In this document: piece after piece, positions 11,489-62,169 of the stretch
How positions within the stretch are numbered: position 1 is the first letter of the stretch
Layout: every line of letters starts with the position of its first letter
Origin: Rhodanobacteraceae bacterium
GTDB taxonomy: Bacteria; Pseudomonadota; Gammaproteobacteria; Xanthomonadales; Rhodanobacteraceae
Assembly (NCBI GenBank): GCA_004299705.1
Contig: SCQS01000048.1
Coordinates: forward strand, 1-64,000
Direction: 5' to 3'
DNA length: 64,000 nt
Made by a program: the position numbers and the translations under genes
The notes under the pieces: model-generated
Database searches by the model: none
Told to the model about the DNA's origin: nothing
What the model saw: only the letters and a program-made list of their open reading frames with translations

Positions 11489-13128
11489 GCTTGCCTGCCT
11501 GTCGGTCGAATGCTTTCCGGAATGATTTGCGCACCGAACTGGCGCTGCATGTCCTGGATGAACGGGTCTTCCGCCAGCGCACGTTCGGCAGCGGCCTGTT
11601 CTTCGGAGCGCGCTTTCGCCGCACGCGTGGCCGGTGTTTCCGCCACGGCCTCGTGCACGATGCGCACGCGCAACGGGCGGCCGATCGCCGCACCGAGTTG
11701 ATCCTGCAATTGCCTGCACACGGCGTCGCTGCTGAAGATGACGTGCTCGGGCTTGAGCGCCAGCGTCAGCACCTCGCCCTCGAACGACTTCGGCACCGCA
11801 TGCTGCGCAAGCAGCCCGACGGGGCCGCCCAGGCCCGCCGCGCGGATCCACATCTCCCAATCGGCGATGCCCTGGATACGTGGCGCCGCAGCTGCGGGCT
11901 TGGCCGGTTTTTCCGGTGCGTCGGCAACACCGCCGGCATGCGTCACGCCGACATGCTGCGCCGAGGGTGCCGACGCAATGCTTGTCGTTCGTGGTGTTGG
12001 CGCGCCCTCGCGCTGGGCAGGCGCTGCCTGCCTTGCTTCGCCATCGGCGCCGCCACGAAACGCCAGCATCCGCAACAGCGTCATCTCGAAACCGGAACGC
12101 ACATCCGGCGCCAGCGGCAGGTCGCGACGGCCGTTGAGCGCGAACTGGTACCACACCTGCACGTCCTCGGGGGCGAGTTTGCCGGCAAGTGCGCCCAGCA
12201 CCTCACGCTCGGCTTCATCACCGGCGTACCCCGGCACCAGTTGCCGCAACTGGATGCGGTGCAAGGCGGTCGCGAGTTGCTCCAGTACCACCGCGAAATC
12301 GGGCGACAAGCCGGCAATGCGGTCGGCTTCGTCCAACAACGCCTTACCGTTGCCCTCGGCCAGCGCCTGCAGCAACACGCCAACGTCGTTGTCGGCGATC
12401 GTACCCAGCATCGCGCGCACGTCGCCCACGTGCAGCGTGCCGCCGCCGTGCGCGATCGCCTGGTCAAGCAACGACAACCCGTCGCGCAACGAGCCGTCCG
12501 CGCCGCGCGCAAGGGCATCGATCGCGCCGTCGTCGAAGCCGACGCTTTCCTTGCCGAGGATCATCCGCATCTGCCCGGCGATCTGTTCCGGCAGCAGACG
12601 TTTCAAACCGAATTTCAGGCAACGTGACAACACCGTCACCGGCAATTTCTGCGGATCGGTGGTGGCCAACAGGAACTTCACGTGTTCGGGCGGTTCTTCC
12701 AGCGTCTTCAACAGCGCGTTGAAGGCGCTCTTGGAGAGCATGTGCACCTCGTCCACGAGGTACACCTTGTAGCGGCCCTGCGCCGGTGCGTACTGCGCGT
12801 TCTCGATCACCTCGCGCACGTCGTCCACGCCGGTGTTGCTGGCCGCGTCGATCTCGATCAGGTCCACGAAACGCCCGGCATCGACCGCCTTGCAGATCGC
12901 GCACTCGCCGCAAGGGTGCGCGGACATGCCCTTTTCGCAGTTCAGCGACTTGGCGAAGATGCGCGCGATCGTGGTCTTGCCGACGCCGCGGGTGCCGGTG
13001 AAGAGGTACGCGTGGTGCACGCGTCCGGAATCCAGCGCGTGGGTCAGTGCCTTGACCACGTGTTCCTGCCCGACCAGTTCATCGAACTGCTTCGGACGCC
13101 ACTTGCGGGCGAGAACCTGATAACTCAT
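11485..13128 (-). CDS. dnaX: DNA polymerase III subunit tau/gamma
   Basis: Clamp-loader ATPase that links the replicase core to the helicase. The 547-residue protein has Walker [10 protein letters not shown] (45-53), a zinc module with C64, C73, C76 and C79, Walker [10 protein letters not shown] (122-130), and the SRC sensor motif. A Pro/Ala-rich linker (around 375-420) joins a C-terminal tau domain. The ATG at 13128 starts the family N-terminus [12 protein letters not shown]. No strong A-AAA-AAG slippery site is seen; only a single GAAAAACC run lies in the linker, so production of a short gamma form by frameshifting is doubtful. Confidence 0.97.
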
Positions 13129-13215
13129 GGGGACGACTTCGAGGCCATCCCCCATTGTGCCAAGTCAGGGCGACAAGACCAAGCGCACAGGCGCATTCGC
13201 TTGCAGCATTCGTCC

Positions 13216-13244
13216 TTGTACGTATTCCCCGCGCCCGTTATCCT
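13216..13244 (+). promoter_or_regulatory. Promoter for tRNA-Ser(GGA)
   Basis: TTGTAC and TATCCT are separated by 17 bases. The -10 box ends 30 bases before the tRNA. A GC-rich discriminator (GCGCAGTCCGCGG) follows, as in stringently controlled stable-RNA promoters. The SRP RNA downstream is probably read from the same promoter. Confidence 0.55.
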
Positions 13245-13274
13245 GCGCAGTCCGCGGCGACCAACCCGCGGTTC

Positions 13275-13367
13275 GGAGAGGTGTCCGAGCGGTCGAAGGA
13301 GCACGCCTGGAAAGTGTGTAAGCGGCTAAACCCCGCTTCGCGGGTTCGAATCCCGCCCTCTCCGCCA
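13275..13367 (+). tRNA. tRNA-Ser, anticodon GGA
   Basis: A 93-base type II tRNA. The acceptor stem GGAGAGG pairs with CCTCTCC, followed by G and an encoded CCA end. The anticodon loop is CTGGAAA with GGA, reading UCC and UCU. A long variable arm is present, as required for serine, and the T arm is GGGTTCGAATCCC. It lies seven bases before the SRP RNA gene. Confidence 0.97.
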
Positions 13368-13373
13368 GTTTAT

Positions 13374-13483
13374 GGTGGCTCCGTCGGTGCCTCCGCGACG
13401 ATAGATCGAAAACTCCGCCAGGGCCGGAAGGCAGCAACGGTATCGCTCGACTCGTGCGCCGGAGATACGCTGGCGGGGCCGCC
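13374..13483 (+). ncRNA. ffs: Signal recognition particle 4.5S RNA
   Basis: RNA core of the bacterial signal recognition particle, which targets membrane proteins together with Ffh. The conserved Ffh-binding hairpin is visible as CCGGAAGGCAGCAACGG around 13424-13440. The ends pair: GGTGGC with GCCGCC (13374-13379 with 13478-13483), then TCCGTCGG with CTGGCGGG. The rod-like fold of about 110 bases is normal for the small form. Transcription likely continues from the tRNA-Ser gene just upstream. A short TTTT run at 13487 may help end it. Confidence 0.93.
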
Positions 13484-13510
13484 GCCTTTTCAGGACACTC
13501 TGAATAATCC

Positions 13511-13596
13511 TCGTCATCCCCGCGAAAGCGGGGATCCAGTGACTTCAACCCGTTAAAACCAAAGACTCTGGATTCCCGCTTTCGCGGGAATGACGA
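13511..13596. repeat. TCGTCATTCCCGC palindrome (paired REP-like element)
   Basis: Left arm TCGTCATCCCCGCGAAAGCG and right arm ending CGCGGGAATGACGA form a long imperfect inverted repeat, each arm also holding its own small hairpin. The same family occurs at 33286-33415, 47169-47278 and 63616-63741, with half copies at 33468-33500 and 40453-40487. It separates the SRP RNA from the convergent moaE. Confidence 0.85.
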
Positions 13597-13613
13597 GCAA
13601 AATCAGATTTCCT

Positions 13614-14027
13614 TCAGGGGTGCAGCCACTCGGAATCGCCCTCGACATAGTGCTCGCGCTTCCAGATCGGTACCCGCGCCTTGACTTGGTCGATCACGTA
13701 GCGACAGGCATCGAATGCCGCCGCGCGATGGCCCGCCGACACGCCCGCCCACACCGCGACCTCGCCCAGCGCCAAGTCGCCGATCCTGTGCACGCACACG
13801 ATGCGTTCGACCGGAAAGCAGGATCGAGCTTCATCCACGATCCGTTGCCCCTCGGCCTGCGCCAGCTCGACATAGGCCTGATACGACAGGGCATGCACCG
13901 CGCGACCATCGTTGTGATCGCGCACGCGGCCCTCGAAACAGACCACCGCGCCGACACCGGCCGCTTCGAGTCCGCGTTGCAGGCGTGCGGCATCGATCGG
14001 TGCCGCGCTGATCGAAAAGCCGTCCAT
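13614..14027 (-). CDS. moaE: Molybdopterin synthase catalytic subunit MoaE
   Basis: Large subunit of molybdopterin synthase, which inserts two dithiolene sulfurs into cyclic pyranopterin monophosphate. The 137-residue protein has the FEGRVRDHN motif, the CVHRIGDLALGE strand, and the active-site lysine region PIWKREHY near the C-terminus. Its start overlaps the moaD stop (TGATG), matching the fixed stoichiometry of the two subunits. Confidence 0.96.
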   Translation of the reverse strand: MDGFSISAAPIDAARLQRGLEAAGVGAVVCFEGRVRDHNDGRAVHALSYQAYVELAQAEGQRIVDEARSCFPVERIVCVHRIGDLALGEVAVWAGVSAGHRAAAFDACRYVIDQVKARVPIWKREHYVEGDSEWLHP

Positions 14028-14266
14028 CAGCCCCCACTCACTGGCGGCAGGAACACCACCTCGTCGTTGTCCGCGAGGTGATGGTTCCAGTCGGTGAAAG
14101 CGCCATTGACGGCCACGCGCAAACGCTCCGGCGCGAACGTGAAGCCATGCCGCGCTGCAAGCTCGATGTACAGCGCAAGCACGTCAGGCGCCCCACTGGT
14201 CACGGTTTCCTCGGCCCGGCCCGCGGCGTCGCACAGTGCAGCGAAATACAACAGGCGATACCTCAT
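14027..14266 (-). CDS. moaD: Molybdopterin synthase sulfur carrier MoaD
   Basis: 79-residue ubiquitin-fold sulfur carrier. The C-terminal Gly-Gly (PPVSGG), which is converted to thiocarboxylate, is intact. The N-terminus [16 protein letters not shown] and the [20 protein letters not shown] strand match the family. It is coupled on both sides: ATGA with the moaC stop and TGATG with moaE. Confidence 0.95.
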
Positions 14267-14760
14267 CGCGGCACGACCTTGCCGGACTTCACCTCGCGCT
14301 TGCCGCCCGATTTCTCCAGCAAGCGCACCGGGCCGATCTGGATTTCGTGCGACAACGCCTTGCACATGTCGTACACGGTGAGCGCCGCGACACTGGCACC
14401 GGTCAAGGCCTCCATCTCGACGCCGGTCTTGTGCGTGATCGCGACCTCGCAGCGGATCGCAAGCGAGGTATCCGTGATGAAATCCGCCTCGATTCGACAA
14501 CGTTCGATCGCCAGCGGGTGACAGAACGGAATCAGTTCGTGGGTGCGTTTGGCGGCCATGCTGCCGGCCACGATCGCGGTATCGATCACCGGCCCCTTCT
14601 TGCTGCGCATGCCACCCTCGCGCAACGCGTCGGCAACGGCTTTCGGAAACCGCACCACGGCTTCGGCCACGGCGACGCGCGCGGTGGCGGCTTTGGCGCC
14701 GACATCGACCATGCGCGGGCGGTTGGCGGCATCGAGATGAGATAATTTTCTTTGAGTCAT
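14263..14760 (-). CDS. moaC: Cyclic pyranopterin monophosphate synthase MoaC
   Basis: Converts the MoaA product to cyclic pyranopterin monophosphate. The 165-residue protein has [10 protein letters not shown] near the N-terminus, the KKGPVIDTA loop, the IPFCHPLAI motif and the [17 protein letters not shown] helix, all typical. It is the third moa gene in the order A-C-D-E. The gap to moaA is 110 bases and is largely a palindromic repeat, unlike the overlaps between the other moa genes. Confidence 0.97.
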
Positions 14761-52766: not shown

Positions 52767-53693
52767 ATGAGCAAAGGCACCCACGATTACGCGCCCGATC
52801 CGCGCAACGCCGCCATCAAGGTCAACTTGAACGACGCATTGATCGCGCGCGACGAAGCCAAGGTTTCCGTGTTTGACGCGGGCTATGTGCTGGGTGATGG
52901 CATTTGGGAAGGCCTGCGCGTGCACGGCGGTGGCCTGCCCTTCCTCGACATGCACCTGGATCGTTTGTACGAAGGCGCCAAGGCCATCGACCTCGACATC
53001 GGGCTGACGCGCGAGCAGTTGACCGAACGCATCCTCGCGACCCTGCGCGCCAACGGCATGCGCGACCACGTGCACATCCGCCTGATGGTGACGCGCGGCC
53101 TCAAGGCCACGCCGCACCAGGACCCGCGCTTCGTGATCGGCCCGCCGACCATCGTGATCGTGCCCGAATACAAGGAACCACTGCCGGACACCGTCGCAAA
53201 AGGCATCCGCCTGTTCACCGTGCACGTGCGCCGCGGCGCGCCCGACGTGCAGGATCCGAAGCTCAACAGTCATTCCAAGCTCAACTGCATCCTCGCCTGC
53301 ATCCAGGCCCAGAAGGCCGGGTACGACGAGGCGCTGATGCTGGACCCGCACGGCTTCGTCGCCACCTGCAATTCCACGCACTTCTTCATCGTGCGCCGCG
53401 GCGAAGTCTGGACATCCACCGGCAAGTATTGCCTCGGCGGCATCACCCGCGCCAACGTCGTCAGGCTCTGCCGCGACCACGGCATCCCGGTGTTCGAAAA
53501 GGATTTCAGCCTGACCGACGTGTACGGCGCCGACGAAGCCTTCGTCACCGGCACTTTTGCCGGGTTGACGCCGGTTTGCGAGATCGACGGGCGCACGATT
53601 GGCGACGGCACGCGTGGCCCCATGTGCAAACGCCTGCAGCAGGTGTACATGCAATTGATGGAAACCGAGAGCCGCGCGGGCGTGCAGGTGTGA
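52767..53693 (+). CDS. Class IV aminotransferase (branched-chain or D-amino-acid type)
   Basis: 308-residue PLP enzyme of fold type IV. The catalytic lysine is K171 in NSHSKLNCILA, and the family segments VSVFDAGYVLGDGIWEGLRV, LMVTRGL and GGITRANVVRLCRDHGIP are present. The first residues of the ORF upstream of 52767 are not family-like; the ATG has a GGGAAAG ribosome site. The substrate class (branched-chain, D-amino acid or aminodeoxychorismate) is not settled. It overlaps the next gene by GTGA. Confidence 0.88.
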   Translation: MSKGTHDYAPDPRNAAIKVNLNDALIARDEAKVSVFDAGYVLGDGIWEGLRVHGGGLPFLDMHLDRLYEGAKAIDLDIGLTREQLTERILATLRANGMRDHVHIRLMVTRGLKATPHQDPRFVIGPPTIVIVPEYKEPLPDTVAKGIRLFTVHVRRGAPDVQDPKLNSHSKLNCILACIQAQKAGYDEALMLDPHGFVATCNSTHFFIVRRGEVWTSTGKYCLGGITRANVVRLCRDHGIPVFEKDFSLTDVYGADEAFVTGTFAGLTPVCEIDGRTIGDGTRGPMCKRLQQVYMQLMETESRAGVQV

Positions 53694-54442
53694 CGGTGCG
53701 CGAACCCCTGCGTATCGCGATGTGGTCGGGACCGCGCAACATTTCCACCGCGCTGATGCGCGCGTGGGAAAACCGCGCAGACACCTGCGTGATCGACGAA
53801 CCGTTCTACGCGCACTACCTGGTCGAAACGGGCATCGACCATCCGGGCCGCGAGGACGTGATCGCGACCCAGGAAACCGACGACGCCAAGGTCGCGGCAA
53901 CGCTCATCGGTCCGATCCCCGGCGGCAAGCCGATCTGGTACCAGAAACACATGACCCAGCACATGCTGTCCGAAATGCCGCTGGACTGGCTGGATCGCGT
54001 CAGCAACTGTTTCCTGATCCGCGAACCCGAGCGCGTCGCAGCATCGTTCACCCGGCAGCGTCCCGATGCCGAGGTGTGGGAACTCGGCTTCGAGCAGCAG
54101 GCACGCCTGTTCGACTACGCGTGCGAGCGGCTGGGCCACGCGCCGCCGGTCATCGATGCAGCCGATGTGCTGCGGGATCCGCGTGGCATCCTGGCTGCAC
54201 TGTGCGCGCGGCTCGGCATCCCTTTCAGCGAGCGCATGTTGCGCTGGCCGTCGGGCAAGCGCGCCAGCGACGGCGTGTGGGCGCCGCACTGGTACGCGGC
54301 GGTGGAACGTTCCAGTAGTTTTGCGCCATGGCGACCGCGCGAAACCGAACTGAGTGATTTGCAGCAGCGGCTCGCCGACGCTTGCCGGCCTTATTACGAA
54401 CGGCTGGTGGCATATCGCTTGACCGCACAACCGACAGCGTGA
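53690..54442 (+). CDS. Sulfotransferase-fold protein coupled to the aminotransferase
   Basis: 250-residue P-loop protein of the sulfotransferase fold. The phosphate-binding loop MWSGPRNISTALMRAWENR is near the N-terminus, with IREPERVAASFTRQRP as the second PAPS-binding segment. The GTG start lies inside the aminotransferase stop, so both are made together. Similar small proteins are annotated as branched-chain amino-acid aminotransferase-associated. They are not proven sulfotransferases. A sulfated amino-acid derivative would be a possible product. Confidence 0.78.
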   Translation: MTVREPLRIAMWSGPRNISTALMRAWENRADTCVIDEPFYAHYLVETGIDHPGREDVIATQETDDAKVAATLIGPIPGGKPIWYQKHMTQHMLSEMPLDWLDRVSNCFLIREPERVAASFTRQRPDAEVWELGFEQQARLFDYACERLGHAPPVIDAADVLRDPRGILAALCARLGIPFSERMLRWPSGKRASDGVWAPHWYAAVERSSSFAPWRPRETELSDLQQRLADACRPYYERLVAYRLTAQPTA

Positions 54443-54467: not shown

Positions 54468-55328
54468 CTACACCGTCGCGACGATGCGCCCCACTTCCGC
54501 CAGCACGGCTTTGCGTCCGACGGGATCGGTCGCGTGGTTCATGTAATAGGCCGTGACCAGCAGGGGCTTGCGTTTGGGTGGCCAGACAATTGCGATGTCG
54601 TTGTTCGCACCAAGCCCATTTCCATCCCACTGTCCCGTCTTGTCGCCAATACGCCAACCTGGCGGCAACCCGGCGCGCAACGATTGCAGCCCCGTCTGGC
54701 AATCCAGCATCCAGTGTGTCAGCAGCTTGCACGATGCAGGCGTCAGCGCATCGCCCAGCAACAATTTTTGTATGTCGCCCAGCATTGCCGAAGGCGTGGT
54801 CATGTCGTAGGGATTGAGCTCCGGCTCGATACGATCCAGCAACGTGACCGGATCACCGAGACTGCGCGCATAACGCGTCACCGCGGCCGGGCCGCCGATG
54901 TTCGCCAGCAGCAGGTTGGCCGCGGTGTTGTCGCTCAAGGTGATCGCGGCCCGGCACAGCTCGGCAATCGTCATGCCGGGTGGGCCGACGTGTTGCTTGG
55001 TGAGTGGTGCCCAGTCGAGCAGCGCGGACTGGTCGAACACGATGCGCCGGTCGAGTTCCTCCTCGCCACGATCCACGCGCGCCAGCACGGCCGCCGCCAG
55101 CAGCAGCTTGAACGTGCTGCACATCAGGAAGCGCTCGTCGCCGCGATTCGCGATGCGCCGACCACTGCCGGTATCGAAGATGGCAACGCCGAGACGCCCG
55201 CCGTGCACGCGTTCAAGATCGGCCAGCCGCAGCGCGGCATCGTGGCGGGTTGCGGCAAGCAGACGCGGTGCGACACCCAAGGCCAATGCTCCGACCACAG
55301 CGCCCTTTAACCACTCACGACGATTCAC
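54468..55328 (-). CDS. Class A beta-lactamase with Tat-type signal
   Basis: 286-residue serine beta-lactamase. The catalytic motifs are complete: S71-T-F-K74, S132-D-N134, the omega-loop E168 in EPELN and K230-T-G. The signal NRREWLKGAVVGALALG fits a twin-arginine leader, and the LMCSTFK context with cysteine before the serine resembles the chromosomal L2/SFO group. The start is GTG at 55328 after an AGGGAA site. No LysR-type regulator is adjacent. Substrate range cannot be read from sequence. Confidence 0.94.
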   Translation of the reverse strand: MNRREWLKGAVVGALALGVAPRLLAATRHDAALRLADLERVHGGRLGVAIFDTGSGRRIANRGDERFLMCSTFKLLLAAAVLARVDRGEEELDRRIVFDQSALLDWAPLTKQHVGPPGMTIAELCRAAITLSDNTAANLLLANIGGPAAVTRYARSLGDPVTLLDRIEPELNPYDMTTPSAMLGDIQKLLLGDALTPASCKLLTHWMLDCQTGLQSLRAGLPPGWRIGDKTGQWDGNGLGANNDIAIVWPPKRKPLLVTAYYMNHATDPVGRKAVLAEVGRIVATV

Positions 55329-55478: not shown

Positions 55479-57092
55479 TCAAGACTCCGCAATCGTCAAC
55501 CCTGCTGCGCGCAGGCGTTCCCGCAACCCGTCGAGTGCATGCCCGTAACGCGATGCACGTGCGGTGTCCCGCCGCAAAGGCTGCCTGACCTGCGCGGCAC
55601 TGGGCGTGCTCAACACTGTGCGTTCGGTACGATGGAATTCCAGACATGCCGGGTCGAACGGCAATCCGCAGAAATCCAGCAGGCGACGAATCGTTGGTTC
55701 CGGCTCGGTCACGAGCGTTTCGTACTCAAGGTTGAACACGCGGTCGGGAAAATTCTTCAGCCAGAACTGAGTCAAGCGCCAGAAGTCGATACAGAAATCT
55801 GCCATTTCATCCAGGTCAAAGCTGAACTCGGCGCCTTGGTCAAACCATTGACGGTAGCATCCAAGGCAGGCTTCCACCGGGTCGCGATGTACGACCACGA
55901 CGCGCGCGCTGGGCAACATGGTCAATGCCGCACCCGCCAGTACCCAATTCAAGAGGTTCTTGTCAACCATCCGCGGCTTGCGTTCGCGCCAGCGTGCCGT
56001 GCGCGCAAGGTATTCTTCGCCAAGCCGCTGCCAATCCTGCGTGGTCGCATCGGGCACCCAGAAGGGGAATGTGCTGGCTCGGCGGCGCGTTTCCGATTCG
56101 ATTACCTGACCGATGTCCTTGATCTCATTGGCGCCTTCAACTTCCGCATGAGATGCCAATATCTGCTCTACAAGTGTGGAGCCAGATCGCGGCAGGCTGG
56201 CAATGAAGATCACGTCGCGCCCGAGTTCAGTGTCTGGTGTACACGCTACAGGCTCCGCAAACACTCGCCTAATCGTTTCCACTCGCTCGTGTTCGCCCAC
56301 GGCGTCCCACTTCATTCGCCTGCGTTGCGACGTATTGGCTCGCTTCAGCAGTTCGAAGGCCCGCGCGTAATCGCCTTGGTCTTCCAGCGCGCGCGCCAGT
56401 ACGAACTCGAGCCGGATGCGCACGCCGGGCGATAGGCTCCGGTTCCCAAGCGCCCGTTCCAGCGATTCCACATCCTGCTTCTCGAATGCTGCGGTTTTCA
56501 GATCCGCCAGTGCCAACCAAGCTTCCATGTAATCGGGTTGGCGACTTAGAAGCTCGCGCAGATCAGCCACTGCTACGTTGACCCTGCCAACCCCCGCTTG
56601 CGCGCGCGCCAAGCCGACCTCGGCCCGCGCGTACGTAGGATCAATCGACAGTGTACGTTGCAAGGCCTCGATCACCGCATTCGCTTGCCCCTGCGGCCAC
56701 AAACCCTCGGCCAAGTTGTACCACGCTGAAGCGGAATCTGGCGCCAACTCGCACGCACGTTGCAGGTGCGCCAAGCCGTCATCGATCCTACCCGTCCGGT
56801 ATAACGCGACACCCAGCCCAATGTGCAAGTCCGCATCATCGGGCAATGCATCCAGTGCCCGTTGGAAACAATCTGCGGCGCCAACGTGATCCCCAAGATT
56901 CTGGGCTGCGATGCCCATCCAGCGCGTGATCTCGACGCTATCCTGCGCCAAGGCAAGTGCGCTGGTCAGTGTCCGCATCGCGGCGGCGGCATCCCCGGAT
57001 TGCGACTCTTTCCGCCCGCGCTTCAGCAACCGCGCCGCCATGGGCGACAGCGATTCGGGTGTCGCCGCCATCGGTATTTTTGCCTGCGTCAT
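55479..57092 (-). CDS. TPR-sulfotransferase, copy 1
   Basis: 537-residue protein with N-terminal tetratricopeptide repeats (about 25-200) and a C-terminal sulfotransferase. The 5'-phosphosulfate loop is SLPRSGSTLVEQILASH (299-315), with the VVVHRDPVEACLGCYRQWF 3'-phosphate region and a conserved end AAQVRQPLRRDTARASRYGH. It resembles TPR-linked protein sulfotransferases that modify tyrosine or glycan targets. It shares the C-terminal half almost motif for motif with the copy at 60580-62169. It lies 105 bases after the TonB receptor stop, past a terminator. Confidence 0.9.
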   Translation of the reverse strand: MTQAKIPMAATPESLSPMAARLLKRGRKESQSGDAAAAMRTLTSALALAQDSVEITRWMGIAAQNLGDHVGAADCFQRALDALPDDADLHIGLGVALYRTGRIDDGLAHLQRACELAPDSASAWYNLAEGLWPQGQANAVIEALQRTLSIDPTYARAEVGLARAQAGVGRVNVAVADLRELLSRQPDYMEAWLALADLKTAAFEKQDVESLERALGNRSLSPGVRIRLEFVLARALEDQGDYARAFELLKRANTSQRRRMKWDAVGEHERVETIRRVFAEPVACTPDTELGRDVIFIASLPRSGSTLVEQILASHAEVEGANEIKDIGQVIESETRRRASTFPFWVPDATTQDWQRLGEEYLARTARWRERKPRMVDKNLLNWVLAGAALTMLPSARVVVVHRDPVEACLGCYRQWFDQGAEFSFDLDEMADFCIDFWRLTQFWLKNFPDRVFNLEYETLVTEPEPTIRRLLDFCGLPFDPACLEFHRTERTVLSTPSAAQVRQPLRRDTARASRYGHALDGLRERLRAAGLTIAES

Positions 57093-57145
57093 TTCATCGG
57101 AAGTTGCTTCTCGCCGCCATTATGCCAACCCATGACTGCAATTCC

Positions 57146-57176
57146 AAAAAAACCGCCGGGTACGAGCCCCGGCGGC
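57146..57176 (-). terminator. Terminator after the TonB receptor gene
   Basis: On the minus strand CCGCCGGGG/CCCGGCGG arms around a CTCGTA loop are followed by seven T residues. It lies 22 bases past the receptor stop and before TPR-sulfotransferase copy 1, which would then need its own promoter in the 30 or so remaining bases or rely on read-through. Confidence 0.88.
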
Positions 57177-57197
57177 TGAGAGTAAAACGTGGCGACA

Positions 57198-60100
57198 TTA
57201 CCAGTTGTACGCGACGCTAAACCGCCAGTAGCGGGGAGGCACCCAACCCTCCACCCGGTGATAAGTCGTCAGCGGGTAGTAGGCGCGATACTGGAGTGGC
57301 GTCTGGCTGTTGAACACGTTGAAGACATCCAGCTTGAAGGCCAGTTTGCGGCCTGCCCAGTCCGGTTGGTAAATCACGTTGAGGGCCAGCTGATGGGTCC
57401 AGGGCGTGAATCCCGTCGAACCCGGAGGCGCCACCTTTCCGTTGCAGAAGTGATACTGCGGACCGTAATTCGGCGTTACCGGAACGGGATAATTGCCTAG
57501 ACAGATGTCGGGGTGTCCCGAAGCAATGAACAGATTGCCACCCACCATCCACTCCGGGGTGATCGCGTATTCGCCGGAGATCTTGAACTGATGTTTTTGG
57601 TCGTTGGGCAGCAGGCCGTACGAGCCCTGCATGATCTGGTAAAAATCCCACTGCTCGGTGATGGATACCGAATTGCCGCCTTGGCCAATGACCGAATCCA
57701 CCGGGCCCTCGGTATTACCCCAGTTGCGCGAAAAAGTGTAGGAAACCTGGCCCCACCACTTGCCATCCCAAGGGTGCGTCAGCGACAGGTTGATGGCGTA
57801 GTACTTGCGCACCACCCCTTTCGAGAAGCCCTGCTGGGCCATATTAACCGTCACCGGCACCAACCCGCCGCTGGGAGATTTGACCTGAATCGTCTGGGTT
57901 ACGCCCGGGTTGATCAGCACTGCTCCGAGCGTATAGTTGGTGCAGTTTTGCGGGGTCAGCCATGCATAACCTTCGCTCAGGCCCGCGGCGCACATCCTCT
58001 GCTGGTCGTCCCAGTCGTCCACGATTCGGCCCAGTCTTTTGTATATGCCGTCCGCTCCGAACACCCAGCCCGTGCCCAGGAAATTCAGCTTGTGCTGCAT
58101 GCCCAACACGTAGGCATCGGCATATTCGGCCTTGATGTTGGTGGCAGCAACCGTGCGCGGATCCAGCGGCAACCCGTACTCATTGTTCTGCGAAACGCCG
58201 CTCACCGGGTTTTCCGGAATCGGTGTCAGGCCTTGCGGGATGCCGTTTGAATCAATGCCGTTGTAAGTGAAATACTGCTGGGTGTAAGTGGAAGCGCCGG
58301 CGCCGCGCAGCGCCACGGCTGCCGGCAATGCGAGGTAATAGCGTCCGGCGTTGCCGTACACCTTGAACGTGGAATCGCCATTAACATCCCAACTGAAGCC
58401 GATGCGCGGCTCCCACTGCGGCTTGGTCAATCGGATATATGGCTGCCCTGCCGGGTTGTAGTTGACGAACGTGTCGTCGCGCAAGCCGATTTTCATCAGG
58501 AAGTTGGGCGTGATCTGCCAGTTGTCCTGAACGTATTCTGCGCGCTGCGCCACCCGCACGCTGGCAGCGTTGGTGAAAATGTACTTGCTCACGTAATAAC
58601 CCGTCGCCCCGTCGGGGTTGGAGTTCGGTGGGCCAATGTAGGGCGCAATGGACGGATCGGTACCCGTAATGTTGTCGCCAGGGCCCAGCGTGTTGCTGGG
58701 CGGCCCCAACTGCGACCCATAGGACCACGCGTAGCCGGGGCCGGTCATGACCGAACCGTCACCGATGTCCCAAGTGGTGCTGTTGTCGATACCGACCTCA
58801 AGGTCGTGGGTACCCATGAAATGCCAGGGCAATTTCCAATCCAAGTCCACGCGATAGTTCGTCACGCTGTCTTTGTGAGCCGGATTGCCAACGTCAGCAG
58901 TGGTCTGCGAGTTGGTGATGCCACCCGGGGGCACGAACGCAGGATTTTGGGATGCCGCACCGAAGATATAGGGTAGCGGTGACGCCGGTGGCTCCTGATA
59001 GTACTCACCGTGCAATTTGCCGAACATCGCGTGCAGGGTCAGGTTGTCGGTGATGTAGGACGTGTAGTTGGCCACCCACATCCTGAAGGCATTCTTGCTG
59101 GCCGGAAAGCCGAGGAGATAGTTGCCGGTGGCGTGGGTGTTGTAGTCGTAGCCAAAACGCGACGTCCATGTCTTGTTCTCGACCTGAACGCCGGTCAAAG
59201 TCAGGTAATTGTTGTCGTTGATGTTCCAGTTCAGCTTCGCATAGATTTTCGGGCGGTGAATGGTCGTGAAGTCGTTGAAGGTATTGGCGCCGATCGGGGT
59301 GACCGAATTGGAATGGATCTTGTCACTCTCCAAGCCCACGAAGAACAACAGCTTGTCCTTGATGATGGGGCCGCTGACGTACGCGTCATAGATGTTCTCG
59401 GAGTAGTGGTTGTCGCTGCGCCGGCGATACAAATCGCCTGGCAGCTGGCCGGGCGTGGTGTTGCGCGGATTGTCGTAGAGCTGGTCGACATAGGTGCTAC
59501 GCCAACTTCCGGGTTGCCAGATACCCCGGAACCCGAAATGCCATTCATTGGAACCGCTCTTGCCGATCTGGTTCATCACGCCGCCGATGGAACGGCCGTA
59601 CTTGGCGCCGTAACCACTGGTGATGGTCTGCTGCTGCTCGATGGCGCCGTACGGCAGACTGACGCCGCCTTGGCCGGTAAGCGCATCGGTGGTGTTCATG
59701 CCGTCGATGTAATAGGCATTCTCGGCCGTTGACGCGCCACCGAAAACCAGCTCCGGGTTGCCAGTCGCTGACGGATTGGCGGCTTGCAGCAACGCCGATC
59801 CTGGCGTGACGCCCGGCGACATCAGGGCGATACTCTCGGCATTTCGACCGAGCGGCAGTTGGCTCAGCTGTGTGGCCGTTACGGTGTTGCTCTGGTTGGT
59901 GCTGGTGACGTCGATCACCGGAACGGCGTTGGCGGTCACGTTGATCGTGGACAGCGTCTGGAGGTTCTTGGCGCCCGTGGTGGAGGTGAAATCAACCGTC
60001 ACCGCGCCCGATGCCGTCGGTGTGACGTCGGCACGGGTCTGCACCACCTTGCCATCCTGAAGCAACCTGACTGTATAGGTACCGACCGGCAAGATGACCG

Positions 60101-60329
60101 AATACTGACCGGATGGGCCAACGGTGATGGTGCGATTGAAACCTGCGCCGCCAGTGATCTGGATGGTTTCATTCGGAGCAACCGGTACCCTGCCCGCGAT
60201 GGTACCGTTGACGGCCTGCGCGAATGCGCCTCCGGCAAAGGCCAACGCCACCGAGCCACCGATTGCCAACGCCAGCGCCTTGCGCTGGAACATGCGATTG
60301 CGCGAAGCGCGCTGAGACTTTCCTCTCAT
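57198..60329 (-). CDS. Oar-like TonB-dependent receptor with carboxypeptidase-regulatory domain
   Basis: 1043-residue outer-membrane receptor. A signal peptide (KALALAIGGSVALAFAGGAFAQ) is followed by a small CarboxypepD_reg-like Ig fold (GTIAGRVPVAPNETI), a plug domain with LSTINVTANAVP and ENAYYIDGMNTTDALTG, and a long barrel ending in the aromatic YNW, as required for Bam assembly. The start ATG at 60329 is chosen at the signal peptide; a longer upstream frame has no similarity. It belongs to the Oar group, whose ligands are mostly unknown. TPR-sulfotransferase genes flank it on both sides. Confidence 0.92.
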   Translation of the reverse strand: MRGKSQRASRNRMFQRKALALAIGGSVALAFAGGAFAQAVNGTIAGRVPVAPNETIQITGGAGFNRTITVGPSGQYSVILPVGTYTVRLLQDGKVVQTRADVTPTASGAVTVDFTSTTGAKNLQTLSTINVTANAVPVIDVTSTNQSNTVTATQLSQLPLGRNAESIALMSPGVTPGSALLQAANPSATGNPELVFGGASTAENAYYIDGMNTTDALTGQGGVSLPYGAIEQQQTITSGYGAKYGRSIGGVMNQIGKSGSNEWHFGFRGIWQPGSWRSTYVDQLYDNPRNTTPGQLPGDLYRRRSDNHYSENIYDAYVSGPIIKDKLLFFVGLESDKIHSNSVTPIGANTFNDFTTIHRPKIYAKLNWNINDNNYLTLTGVQVENKTWTSRFGYDYNTHATGNYLLGFPASKNAFRMWVANYTSYITDNLTLHAMFGKLHGEYYQEPPASPLPYIFGAASQNPAFVPPGGITNSQTTADVGNPAHKDSVTNYRVDLDWKLPWHFMGTHDLEVGIDNSTTWDIGDGSVMTGPGYAWSYGSQLGPPSNTLGPGDNITGTDPSIAPYIGPPNSNPDGATGYYVSKYIFTNAASVRVAQRAEYVQDNWQITPNFLMKIGLRDDTFVNYNPAGQPYIRLTKPQWEPRIGFSWDVNGDSTFKVYGNAGRYYLALPAAVALRGAGASTYTQQYFTYNGIDSNGIPQGLTPIPENPVSGVSQNNEYGLPLDPRTVAATNIKAEYADAYVLGMQHKLNFLGTGWVFGADGIYKRLGRIVDDWDDQQRMCAAGLSEGYAWLTPQNCTNYTLGAVLINPGVTQTIQVKSPSGGLVPVTVNMAQQGFSKGVVRKYYAINLSLTHPWDGKWWGQVSYTFSRNWGNTEGPVDSVIGQGGNSVSITEQWDFYQIMQGSYGLLPNDQKHQFKISGEYAITPEWMVGGNLFIASGHPDICLGNYPVPVTPNYGPQYHFCNGKVAPPGSTGFTPWTHQLALNVIYQPDWAGRKLAFKLDVFNVFNSQTPLQYRAYYPLTTYHRVEGWVPPRYWRFSVAYNW

Positions 60330-60514
60330 GAGACGTACACCCCCAAAAGGTGACAACTCGTGCGGCGCCTGCGTCGATTCTCCCCAGAACGACACGCATG
60401 CAAACCGCACCCAAGTACTTTCGGCAACCCCAAGGTCGTCGGAAGCGGTTTGCACTGCCCCTCGTTGCAGTGCTTCACGACCGTAACCCGCAATTAACCA
60501 AATTGCAAGCATTG

Positions 60515-60526
60515 ATTCACGTGAAT
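60515..60526. promoter_or_regulatory. 12-base palindrome upstream of the receptor gene
   Basis: ATTCACGTGAAT is a perfect palindrome in the 250-base gap between the receptor start and TPR-sulfotransferase copy 2, about 190 bases upstream of the receptor ATG. It could be an operator, but no regulator gene is adjacent. No clear -10/-35 pair is seen in the gap. Confidence 0.3.
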
Positions 60527-60579
60527 GAAAGCAGATCGAGAGCAATGGCCATTGCAAGAGGGTCTGTGCGCAAGCGTTG

Positions 60580-62169
60580 TCAATCTTGCACTGCCGCCAG
60601 CCCCGCATCGCGCAAACGTTCACGTAACGTATCCAACAGATGGCCGTAACGCGCGGCACGTGCCGTGCCACGCTGCAAGGGCTGGCGCACCTGCGCCGCG
60701 CTGGCCGCGCTGATCACGGTCCGCTGTGTCTGGTGAAAAGCCAGGCAAGCCGGATCGAACGACAGACCGCAAAAATCGAGCAGCCTGCGGATCACGCTTT
60801 CCGGGTCGGCCAGCAACGCTTCGTATTCGAGGTCAAACACGCGGTCTGGATATAGCTTGAGCCAGAATCGGGTGAGACGTACGAAGTCGGCGCAGTAATC
60901 CACCAGTTCGTCCAGATCGTAGGCGAACTGGGTGCCACTGGCGAACCACTGGCGATAGCAGGCGAGGCAAGCCTCGACCGGGTCACGCCGCACCACCACC
61001 ACCCGCGCGGATGGGAGCATGGCCAATGCAGCGCCGATGTATTTCCAGTTCACCAGGTTCTTGTCGGTGAAACGCGGCTTGCGTTCATGCCGCCACCGCG
61101 CGGTGCGCACGAGATATTCCCTGCCTAAGCGCTGCCAGTCGGCGGGCGTCGTTCCCCGTACCCAGTCAGGGAACAGCCTGCCACTCCGCCGTGATTCGCC
61201 ATCCAGAACCGCGGGCAGATCGGTGATCTCGTTGGCGCCTTCCACATCGGCATGCGAGGCCAGTATCTGCTCCACCAGCGTGGAGCCCGAGCGCGGAATG
61301 CTGGCAATCAGGATGACCTCGCTTCCCGACTGCGGATCGAGCGGCGCCGCAGGCGGCGAAGCAAACGCGTGCTCGATGGCATCGATGCGCGCACGATGTT
61401 CCGCCGCATTCCAGCGCATGCGGCCGCGCTGCATGCGGTTGGCGCATTGCAGCACCTCGAAGGATGCCGAGTAGTCTGCCTGGTCTTCCAGCCCGCGCGC
61501 CAGGGCGAACCCGAACAGCACTCGATCTTCCGCAGGCGCGTCGGCACGTTCGAAGTTGCGCCGCAGCAGCGCCAGGTCCTGCCTTGTGAGTGGCACGACC
61601 TTGAGATTGGCCAGCGCGAACCATGCGTGGGCATTTCCTGGGTGAGCCTGCAGCAGTCGCCGCAATTCGGCGACGGCGGCATCAACCTGGCCGACGCTGG
61701 CCTCGGCATCGGCCAAGGTTAGTCGCGCCGAAACGTGCGACGGGTCGAGTCGTAGGGCACGATGCAGGGCTTCGATCGCCTCACCGGTGCGCACCTGCAG
61801 CTTGAGCGCGCGGCCCAGGTTGAACCAGCCGCCCGCCACGTTCGGCGCCAAATCGCAAGCGCGCCGCAATCCCGCGATCGCACCGGCCACATCACCCATC
61901 TCGAACAACGCGATGCCTAGTCCCGCATGCAGCCGCGCGTCGCGCGGTTCGGTTTCGACGGCCTTGCGGAAATATTCGGCGGCGCGCTCGTGCCGACCCT
62001 GCATCTGCGCCGCCACCCCGGCCATACCGAGCGCGGATGCGCAATCGGGTGCCTGCGCAAGCAGTGATGACAACGTGGCCGCGGCGGCATCGAATTGCCG
62101 ACGCGACAACTCGCCCTGCGCCTTCTGTAGCAGATGCACCACATTTGGAGGCAAAACTTGAGTGGTCAT
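60580..62169 (-). CDS. TPR-sulfotransferase, copy 2
   Basis: 529-residue paralogue of the protein at 55479-57092. N-terminal TPR repeats (about 20-185) lead to the sulfotransferase domain with SIPRSGSTLVEQILASH (290-306), VVVRRDPVEACLACYRQWF and the same C-terminal end AAQVRQPLQRGTARAARYGH. The two copies differ most in the TPR part, which may select different protein substrates. It lies upstream of the TonB receptor, 250 bases away, on the same strand. Confidence 0.9.
   Translation of the reverse strand: MTTQVLPPNVVHLLQKAQGELSRRQFDAAAATLSSLLAQAPDCASALGMAGVAAQMQGRHERAAEYFRKAVETEPRDARLHAGLGIALFEMGDVAGAIAGLRRACDLAPNVAGGWFNLGRALKLQVRTGEAIEALHRALRLDPSHVSARLTLADAEASVGQVDAAVAELRRLLQAHPGNAHAWFALANLKVVPLTRQDLALLRRNFERADAPAEDRVLFGFALARGLEDQADYSASFEVLQCANRMQRGRMRWNAAEHRARIDAIEHAFASPPAAPLDPQSGSEVILIASIPRSGSTLVEQILASHADVEGANEITDLPAVLDGESRRSGRLFPDWVRGTTPADWQRLGREYLVRTARWRHERKPRFTDKNLVNWKYIGAALAMLPSARVVVVRRDPVEACLACYRQWFASGTQFAYDLDELVDYCADFVRLTRFWLKLYPDRVFDLEYEALLADPESVIRRLLDFCGLSFDPACLAFHQTQRTVISAASAAQVRQPLQRGTARAARYGHLLDTLRERLRDAGLAAVQD

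Follow-up and report, generated by a model that had tools for sequence, protein, structure and literature searches.

A branch of Oar-like TonB-dependent receptors is conserved beside tetratricopeptide-repeat sulfotransferases in Rhodanobacteraceae and relatives

Introduction

To our knowledge, RaxX is almost the only bacterial protein for which tyrosine sulfation has been proven, and we know of no substrate assigned to those enzymes in which a Sulfotransfer_3 domain is fused to tetratricopeptide repeats (TPR). Here we analyse a block of three genes from a Rhodanobacteraceae bacterium, contained in a 64,000-nucleotide stretch of DNA (contig SCQS01000048.1, positions 1 to 64,000; assembly GCA_004299705.1) that is referred to below as the window. 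Three long open reading frames (ORFs) on the minus strand are transcribed in the order ST_up, receptor, ST_down, the outer two specifying TPR-sulfotransferases and the central one a TonB-dependent receptor. For the latter we keep the label 'Oar-like' of an initial annotation of the window. That annotation had described the layout of the block accurately, with its three ORFs on one strand and a TPR-sulfotransferase on either side of the receptor, and had suggested a module in which a surface or exported protein, possibly the receptor itself, is sulfated.

Amongst the described enzymes closest to the outer genes are the tyrosylprotein sulfotransferases (TPSTs) and RaxST. The TPST criteria comprise a positively charged residue in the 5'-phosphosulfate-binding (5'-PSB) motif, a catalytic glutamate or histidine between the two motifs for 3'-phosphoadenosine 5'-phosphosulfate (PAPS) and an invariant serine in the 3'-phosphate-binding (3'-PB) motif (PMC6637879); RaxX is sulfated by RaxST while still in the cytoplasm, ahead of its secretion (PMC6637879, PMC9372746). 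The window enzymes resemble this group in their modelled catalytic fold, in a 5'-PSB arginine and in a glutamate aligned with a TPST2 glutamate, but differ by fusion to a TPR superhelix and by replacement of the 3'-PB serine. With O-GlcNAc transferase (OGT) they share a TPR superhelix placed before the catalytic domain and a matching TPR part; as that domain is a sulfotransferase in the window enzymes and a glycosyltransferase in OGT, the analogy is one of layout only. A further likeness is to CurM-type sulfotransferases, which give the best Protein Data Bank (PDB) sequence match to the catalytic domain. We take CurM to be a sulfotransferase of a polyketide pathway; no polyketide genes were noticed around the block, and no search aimed at them was made.

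As for the receptor, export of a protease by Myxococcus requires Oar (PMC6434023). The Oar/PopC system of Myxococcus xanthus has a TonB-dependent transporter in common with the block, and the abstract of that paper contains no reference to a sulfotransferase. Two printed statements come nearest to a pairing of the two kinds of gene. One notes that TPST genes can neighbour genes for extracytoplasmic proteins, in a passage that names no TonB receptor, TPR enzyme or conserved pair (PMC9372746); the other places an arylsulfate sulfotransferase gene in Sutterella close to one with a TonB annotation, a single case involving another type of enzyme and no conserved pair (PMC10932419). Literature on TonB or Xanthomonadaceae together with sulfotransferase yielded no description of a conserved receptor/TPR-sulfotransferase pair, and the available parts of PMC10932419, PMC3071791 and PMC6180160 contain none; as far as these searches show, the pair itself appears to be undescribed.

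A receptor branch paired with TPR-sulfotransferases

In searches of 117 genomes, the receptor query (57198–60362, beginning 11 codons before the likely start) matched 87 genomes in 22 of 26 genera at an E-value of 1e-100, and the enzyme query matched 79. Receptor loci were then compiled from 80 regions around the higher-scoring receptors among the matches listed for the window's receptor, together with seven further loci, several genomes contributing more than one receptor. For 101 receptors, a close relative of the enzyme was found within 500 bp codirectionally downstream in 29 cases, convergent at the 3' end in ten and upstream only in one, with none for the other 61; two of the receptor–enzyme gaps are negative because the longest ORF start was used. 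On a tree of 100 receptors (FastTree, midpoint root), the window's clade, termed branch I, holds 49 receptors, 27 of them in head-to-tail and nine in tail-to-tail pairs with an enzyme, the largest gap being 253 bp. A divergent enzyme, recovered with a catalytic-domain profile, lies 169 bp from one more receptor in convergent orientation (L163; L and G numbers are our handles for loci and genomes), giving 37 of 49 linked receptors in branch I versus 2 of 51 in the sister clade, branch II. The loci were chosen from the best matches to the window's own receptor and branch I is therefore over-sampled. A duplicate receptor (L143, the same as L064) and the short N-terminal fragment of a broken receptor (L051) were left out of the tree and the clade counts; the duplicate is still included in the 38 linked loci, 54 enzyme relatives and hairpin tallies given below.

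The remaining 12 branch-I receptors are seven for which no enzyme was found and five others: one with an enzyme 81 bp away on its 5' side and the counterpart of ST_down 1.4 kb off (L074), one with an enzyme of 28 % identity 244 bp upstream (L138), two that are the first member of a tandem pair whose second member is the linked one (L171 and L205) and one at a contig end (L153). Linked loci occur in nine sampled genera (g1, g3, g6, g9, g10, g14, g18, g19 and g23) in both head-to-tail and tail-to-tail order, with Rhodanobacter sp. B05 (L063) and Dyella acidiphila (L067) amongst the named carriers, and the pair is also present in a metagenome-assembled genome (MAG) labelled Steroidobacteraceae (L066). 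In a class-wide sample of 274 genomes the receptor matched three beyond its own; two of these receptor-matching genomes belong to the same order, and one of the two has the pair (L219). Additionally, receptor and enzyme distances are correlated (r 0.80, n = 39, against at most 0.44 in shuffles), much of which could be given by shared species history alone.

Receptor and TPR-sulfotransferase are thus a conserved pair, associated far above chance. The initial annotation had made its proposal depend on linkage in other genomes, and the linkage is not only conserved there but stronger than could be known from the window. Its picture of a receptor enclosed by two sulfotransferases is true of the window yet proves to be a special case, since most of the 38 linked loci show a single enzyme, on the 3' side.

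The three-gene block and its counterparts

Table 1. Features of the receptor/sulfotransferase block in the window
Feature	Position	Strand	Basis or remark
ST_up, TPR-sulfotransferase, 529 aa	60580..62169	-	TPR repeats and PF13469, E 5.5e-39
Sulfotransfer_3 catalytic domain of ST_up	60751..61314	-	PF13469, 135.4 bits (genome-wide scan)
Oar-like TonB-dependent receptor, 1043 aa from likely start ATG 60329	57198..60329	-	Longest ORF 57198-60671
Terminator-like hairpin with T-run, between receptor and ST_down	57151..57177	-	Consensus scan
ST_down, TPR-sulfotransferase, 537 aa	55479..57092	-	TPR repeats and PF13469, E 9.5e-37
Sulfotransfer_3 catalytic domain of ST_down	55650..56210	-	PF13469, 130.2 bits (genome-wide scan)

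Both outer genes match PF13469 well above its curated cut-off of 27 (127.8 and 135.1 bits in a Pfam scan of the block proteins), and an alignment of ST_up with ST_down over 523 columns shows 55 % identity. As the initial annotation had noted, their TPR parts differ most, with 114 of 281 aligned residues identical (41 %) compared with 174 of 247 (70 %) in the catalytic part. The receptor contains OMP_b-brl_4 (70.3 bits, cut-off 30) and Plug (25.5 bits, cut-off 23.9) domains; its carboxypeptidase-regulatory domain (CarboxypepD_reg) scores 25.3 bits, under the curated Pfam cut-off of 32.3, and that of its relative in L219 scores 36.9 bits, over it. As the longest receptor ORF overlaps ST_up, the gene upstream, Table 1 gives a likely start that was deduced from the N-termini of relatives. 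The predicted structure of the receptor is of modest confidence (mean predicted local distance difference test score, pLDDT, 70) and resembles YddB, FusA, FpvA and other TonB-dependent transporters (template modelling scores to the target 0.60–0.69); having both a plug domain and a transporter barrel fold, the protein qualifies as a TonB-dependent transporter.

The complete triple recurs in two further genomes, with flanks matched to those of the window by eye. In L074, a Rhodanobacteraceae MAG, identities to the window are 76 % for ST_up, 56 % for the receptor and 75 % for ST_down, and in L242 (genome G024) they are 74 %, 62–70 % (two pieces, owing to a frameshift) and 61 %. The receptor is hence less conserved than the flanking enzymes in L074, which is not so in L242. 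The wide gap in L074 was considered as an extra gene and rejected, as by eye it reads as a transposase remnant, behind which the ST_down counterpart lies. In the enzyme tree, the ST_up of the window groups with that of L074 and the ST_down of the window with its L074 counterpart, so that the duplication predates the split of these two; the L242 enzymes pair off in the same way.

Two neighbours of the block are recorded here in their own right. A third sulfotransferase, of another family (Sulfotransfer_5, 1.8e-62 at 53711–54403 within ORF 52904–54442), lies close by on the plus strand, and a gene similar to it by eye also flanks the triple in L074. Directly after ST_down is a class A beta-lactamase (54468–55328, minus strand; 303 bits against an NCBIfam class A cut-off of 200), for which no specific named family amongst the best 25 reaches its own cut-off.

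Elsewhere in the window's own genome (3.6 Mb in 78 contigs), the receptor search identified, apart from the receptor of the block, a close paralogue on each of the contigs C8 (54 %) and C76 (55 %, broken into two pieces) and one distant match (28 %). Both close paralogues are followed on the same strand, ∼110–140 bp downstream, by a TPR-sulfotransferase, and all three close receptor copies of this genome, that of the window included, therefore have such an enzyme. TonB receptors of another Pfam type on contigs C68 (L055) and C46 (L057) are likewise each adjoined by a TPR-sulfotransferase. At a separate locus (L052, contig C12, 1–13000), TPR-sulfotransferases and other TPR proteins are densely clustered, together with what by eye is a possible 2OG-Fe(II) oxygenase; similar clusters occur in L239 and L240, where a TonB receptor is also close by.

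Association across the Sulfotransfer_3 family

In three genomes of the window's genus, the positions of 45 Sulfotransfer_3 genes were set against those of 63 TonB receptors (54 Sulfotransfer_3 rows less nine weak ones, with approximated gene extents; 62 receptors by the Plug model and one that it missed). Sixteen of the 45 have a TonB receptor no more than 800 bp away, where ∼2 % each, or ∼1 in total, would be expected, and these include other receptor families, some flanked by enzymes on both sides (L237, L238). Beyond the genus, the enzyme matched 11 genomes other than its own in the class-wide sample, and 5 of 15 class-wide enzyme loci adjoin a TonB receptor (L224, L230, L235 and L236 by Pfam, L229 by phmmer), as do 3 of 29 loci examined across the phylum (L248, L249 and L252). 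Association with a TonB receptor is thus a recurrent feature of part of the Sulfotransfer_3 family. The family itself is common in this phylum: PF13469 has matches in 142 of the 200 genomes sampled, and 17 in the window's own genome, so that the earlier statement that sulfotransferases are rare in bacteria fails for this phylum, yet it occurred in only 2 of 14 well-known control genomes.

These counts bear on the explanation that the neighbourhood reflects chance or a recent local duplication. ST_up and ST_down are indeed paralogues; they belong, however, to separate branches, each with its counterpart in L074 and likewise in L242, and the pairing is conserved over nine genera. Chance is refuted by the survey, both in the contrast between branches I and II and in the 16 of 45 adjoining genes, and we assign this explanation a negligible probability.

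A shared transcript does not in general account for the linkage either. Behind the stop codon of the receptor there is a terminator-like hairpin in 26 of 29 head-to-tail pairs and in all 10 tail-to-tail pairs, compared with 9 of 505 shuffled sequences, and 46 of 62 unlinked receptors have one too, so that it is not special to linked ones; the consensus scan gave three terminator-like sites in the region, fewer than the 7.4 found in shuffles. Given this hairpin and the ten convergent pairs, a simple operon was rejected as the general cause of the linkage. That the genes need not be co-transcribed is compatible with receptor and enzyme sharing only a regulon or a niche, such as nutrient scavenging, without acting on one another, as is the presence of S9 peptidases in the enzyme's place beside three branch-I receptors. 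We consider this very improbable, the association being specific to one receptor branch, surviving a change of orientation and recurring with other receptor families.

The S9 peptidases in question are of the prolyl-oligopeptidase type and form the 3' neighbour of the enzyme-less receptors in L161 and L174 (Pfam) and L162 (similarity); in L054 an S9 peptidase and a TPR-sulfotransferase adjoin. There may be a shared peptide theme, the count being small. Furthermore, a PF00144-type serine hydrolase is present in 8 of the 38 linked loci (L050 at 12931–14649, L064, L066, L141, L142, L144, L146 and L151), directly behind the enzyme in L050 and further off elsewhere, Pfam having been run on the L050 copy only.

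The enzyme as a putative protein sulfotransferase

An AlphaFold model of ST_down (12-sequence alignment) has a mean pLDDT of 84. In this model, 236–242 residues of the catalytic domain can be aligned to TPST1, TPST2 and tick TPST (Z 19.6–19.9, root-mean-square deviation 3.0–3.3), whilst the TPR part matches OGT and designed TPR proteins. At the sequence level, the TPR-sulfotransferase of L054, elsewhere in the same genome, hits tick TPST with 2.7e-14 and TPST1/2 with ∼1e-10 to 2e-11. Residues R302, E323, K378 and R403 are invariant in all 54 close relatives; R302 supplies the charged 5'-PSB residue of TPSTs and E323 the glutamate between the PAPS motifs, falling on a TPST2 glutamate in a gapless part of the alignment. 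APS kinase, which PAPS formation requires, was found in each of the three genomes examined for it. No signal peptide was seen by eye in the TPR-sulfotransferase, which is presumably cytoplasmic like RaxST. With a TPST-like modelled catalytic domain joined to an OGT-like TPR part, the best reading of the enzyme is that of a cytoplasmic protein sulfotransferase.

Candidate substrates and competing explanations

On these grounds we tentatively propose, as a reading with a fair amount still to be said against it, that branch-I Oar-like receptors form a conserved pair with a cytoplasmic, PAPS-dependent TPR-sulfotransferase that sulfates an envelope protein working with the receptor. The TPR superhelix would grip the unfolded protein, and the TPST-like domain would transfer sulfate from PAPS, probably to tyrosine, before export of the protein through Sec. 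Most likely this protein would be the precursor of the receptor or else an exported partner dedicated to it. The TPR part is where ST_up and ST_down have diverged most, and each probably has targets or sites of its own. The repeated occurrence of such enzymes next to TonB receptors of several families favours as substrate the receptor or a factor common to such receptors. The sulfation module of the initial annotation is half supported: a conserved pair, a layout and predicted fold befitting a protein sulfotransferase and the TPR divergence speak for it, and the supposed rarity of the enzymes falls away.

Several observations weigh against this proposal. A branch-specific sulfation site in the receptor was sought amongst columns with a residue in at least 80 % of branch I and at most 20 % of branch II, and was rejected: none of the 32 such columns is a tyrosine, and six are serine or threonine. 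Acid-flanked tyrosines are fewer in branch I receptors (13.8) than in branch II (17.1), and the one tyrosine present in 100 % of branch I and 24 % of branch II lies within a predicted barrel strand. The flanks retrieved for seven branch-I receptors contain no enzyme (L161, L162, L167, L169, L170, L172 and L174). An adjoining receptor was not seen for 29 of the 45 Sulfotransfer_3 genes in the three genomes, nor for 26 of the 29 phylum loci, where 1.5-kb flanks gave limited sensitivity. The receptor is frameshifted in the own-genome paralogue (L051, near 8305) and in G024 (L242, near 7693), next to enzymes that are open; these frameshifts may be due to pseudogene formation, phase variation or sequence error, which look alike here. 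On the side of the enzyme, a PDB sequence search with the catalytic domain of ST_down places CurM first (5.1e-8), ahead of TPST2 (1.7e-4), and the 3'-PB serine of TPSTs is glycine in ST_down and alanine in ST_up. This position is alanine in 38, serine in 10 and glycine in 6 of the 54 close relatives (44 of 54 non-serine) and serine in 31 of 38 other profile matches, so that the change in the cofactor site (residue 411 of ST_down and its ST_up equivalent) is specific to the branch. Within branch I, on the other hand, linked receptors have slightly more strong acid-flanked tyrosine sites (3.4) than unlinked ones (2.4), the latter numbering only seven.

The CurM match speaks for sulfation of a glycan or small molecule, such as a surface polysaccharide or the receptor's ligand, and not of a protein. 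The loss of the 3'-PB serine in most of these enzymes points the same way, as does the setting of the L055 pair amongst sugar-kinase-like, transporter-like and LacI-like genes (by eye); heparan sulfotransferases also match the catalytic domain, weakly (E 0.3 and above). A TPR superhelix with a TPST-like modelled fold is, however, typical of protein-modifying enzymes, and the several receptor families that occur with the enzyme need not have a ligand in common. We therefore regard a non-protein substrate as somewhat unlikely.

A main rival for the substrate itself is an exported partner, given that Oar is needed for export of a protease (PMC6434023) and that RaxST acts on a peptide before secretion (PMC6637879, PMC9372746). 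What is sulfated could then be a cargo: a protein or peptide that is secreted through the Oar-like receptor or recognized by it, as in PopC/Oar or RaxX. The lower conservation of the L074 receptor (56 %) relative to its enzymes (75–76 %) is what might be expected of a specificity part, but this pattern fails in L242. Nor was a shared cargo gene recognized: amongst the best 25 neighbour clusters, only the receptor and enzyme families and frames overlapping them are present at all 38 linked loci. This clustering covers ORFs of at least 80 aa and would therefore miss a short peptide gene, and the other listed clusters were not inspected singly. Neither RaxX nor RaxAB is found amongst the five Pfam-scanned proteins (the block and two neighbours), no search aimed at a RaxX-like peptide having been made. 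Taken together, we judge a cargo of this kind unlikely.

Implications

The linkage suggests sulfation of a surface protein in connection with these receptors, and a receptor branch that is usually paired with a TPR-sulfotransferase provides concrete, testable substrate candidates. If the receptor or a cargo is sulfated, then binding, export, or recognition by phages and bacteriocins could hinge on a modification seldom looked for at TonB receptors. A broader and rather doubtful extension of our proposal is a widespread bacterial sulfation system for TonB-dependent transporters, in which TPR-guided, TPST-like enzymes would carry out cytoplasmic sulfation of the receptor or of a partner that is exported; every receptor branch would have an enzyme of its own, and some receptors two. 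Were such a dedicated system to exist, it would constitute a new post-translational layer on outer-membrane transport.

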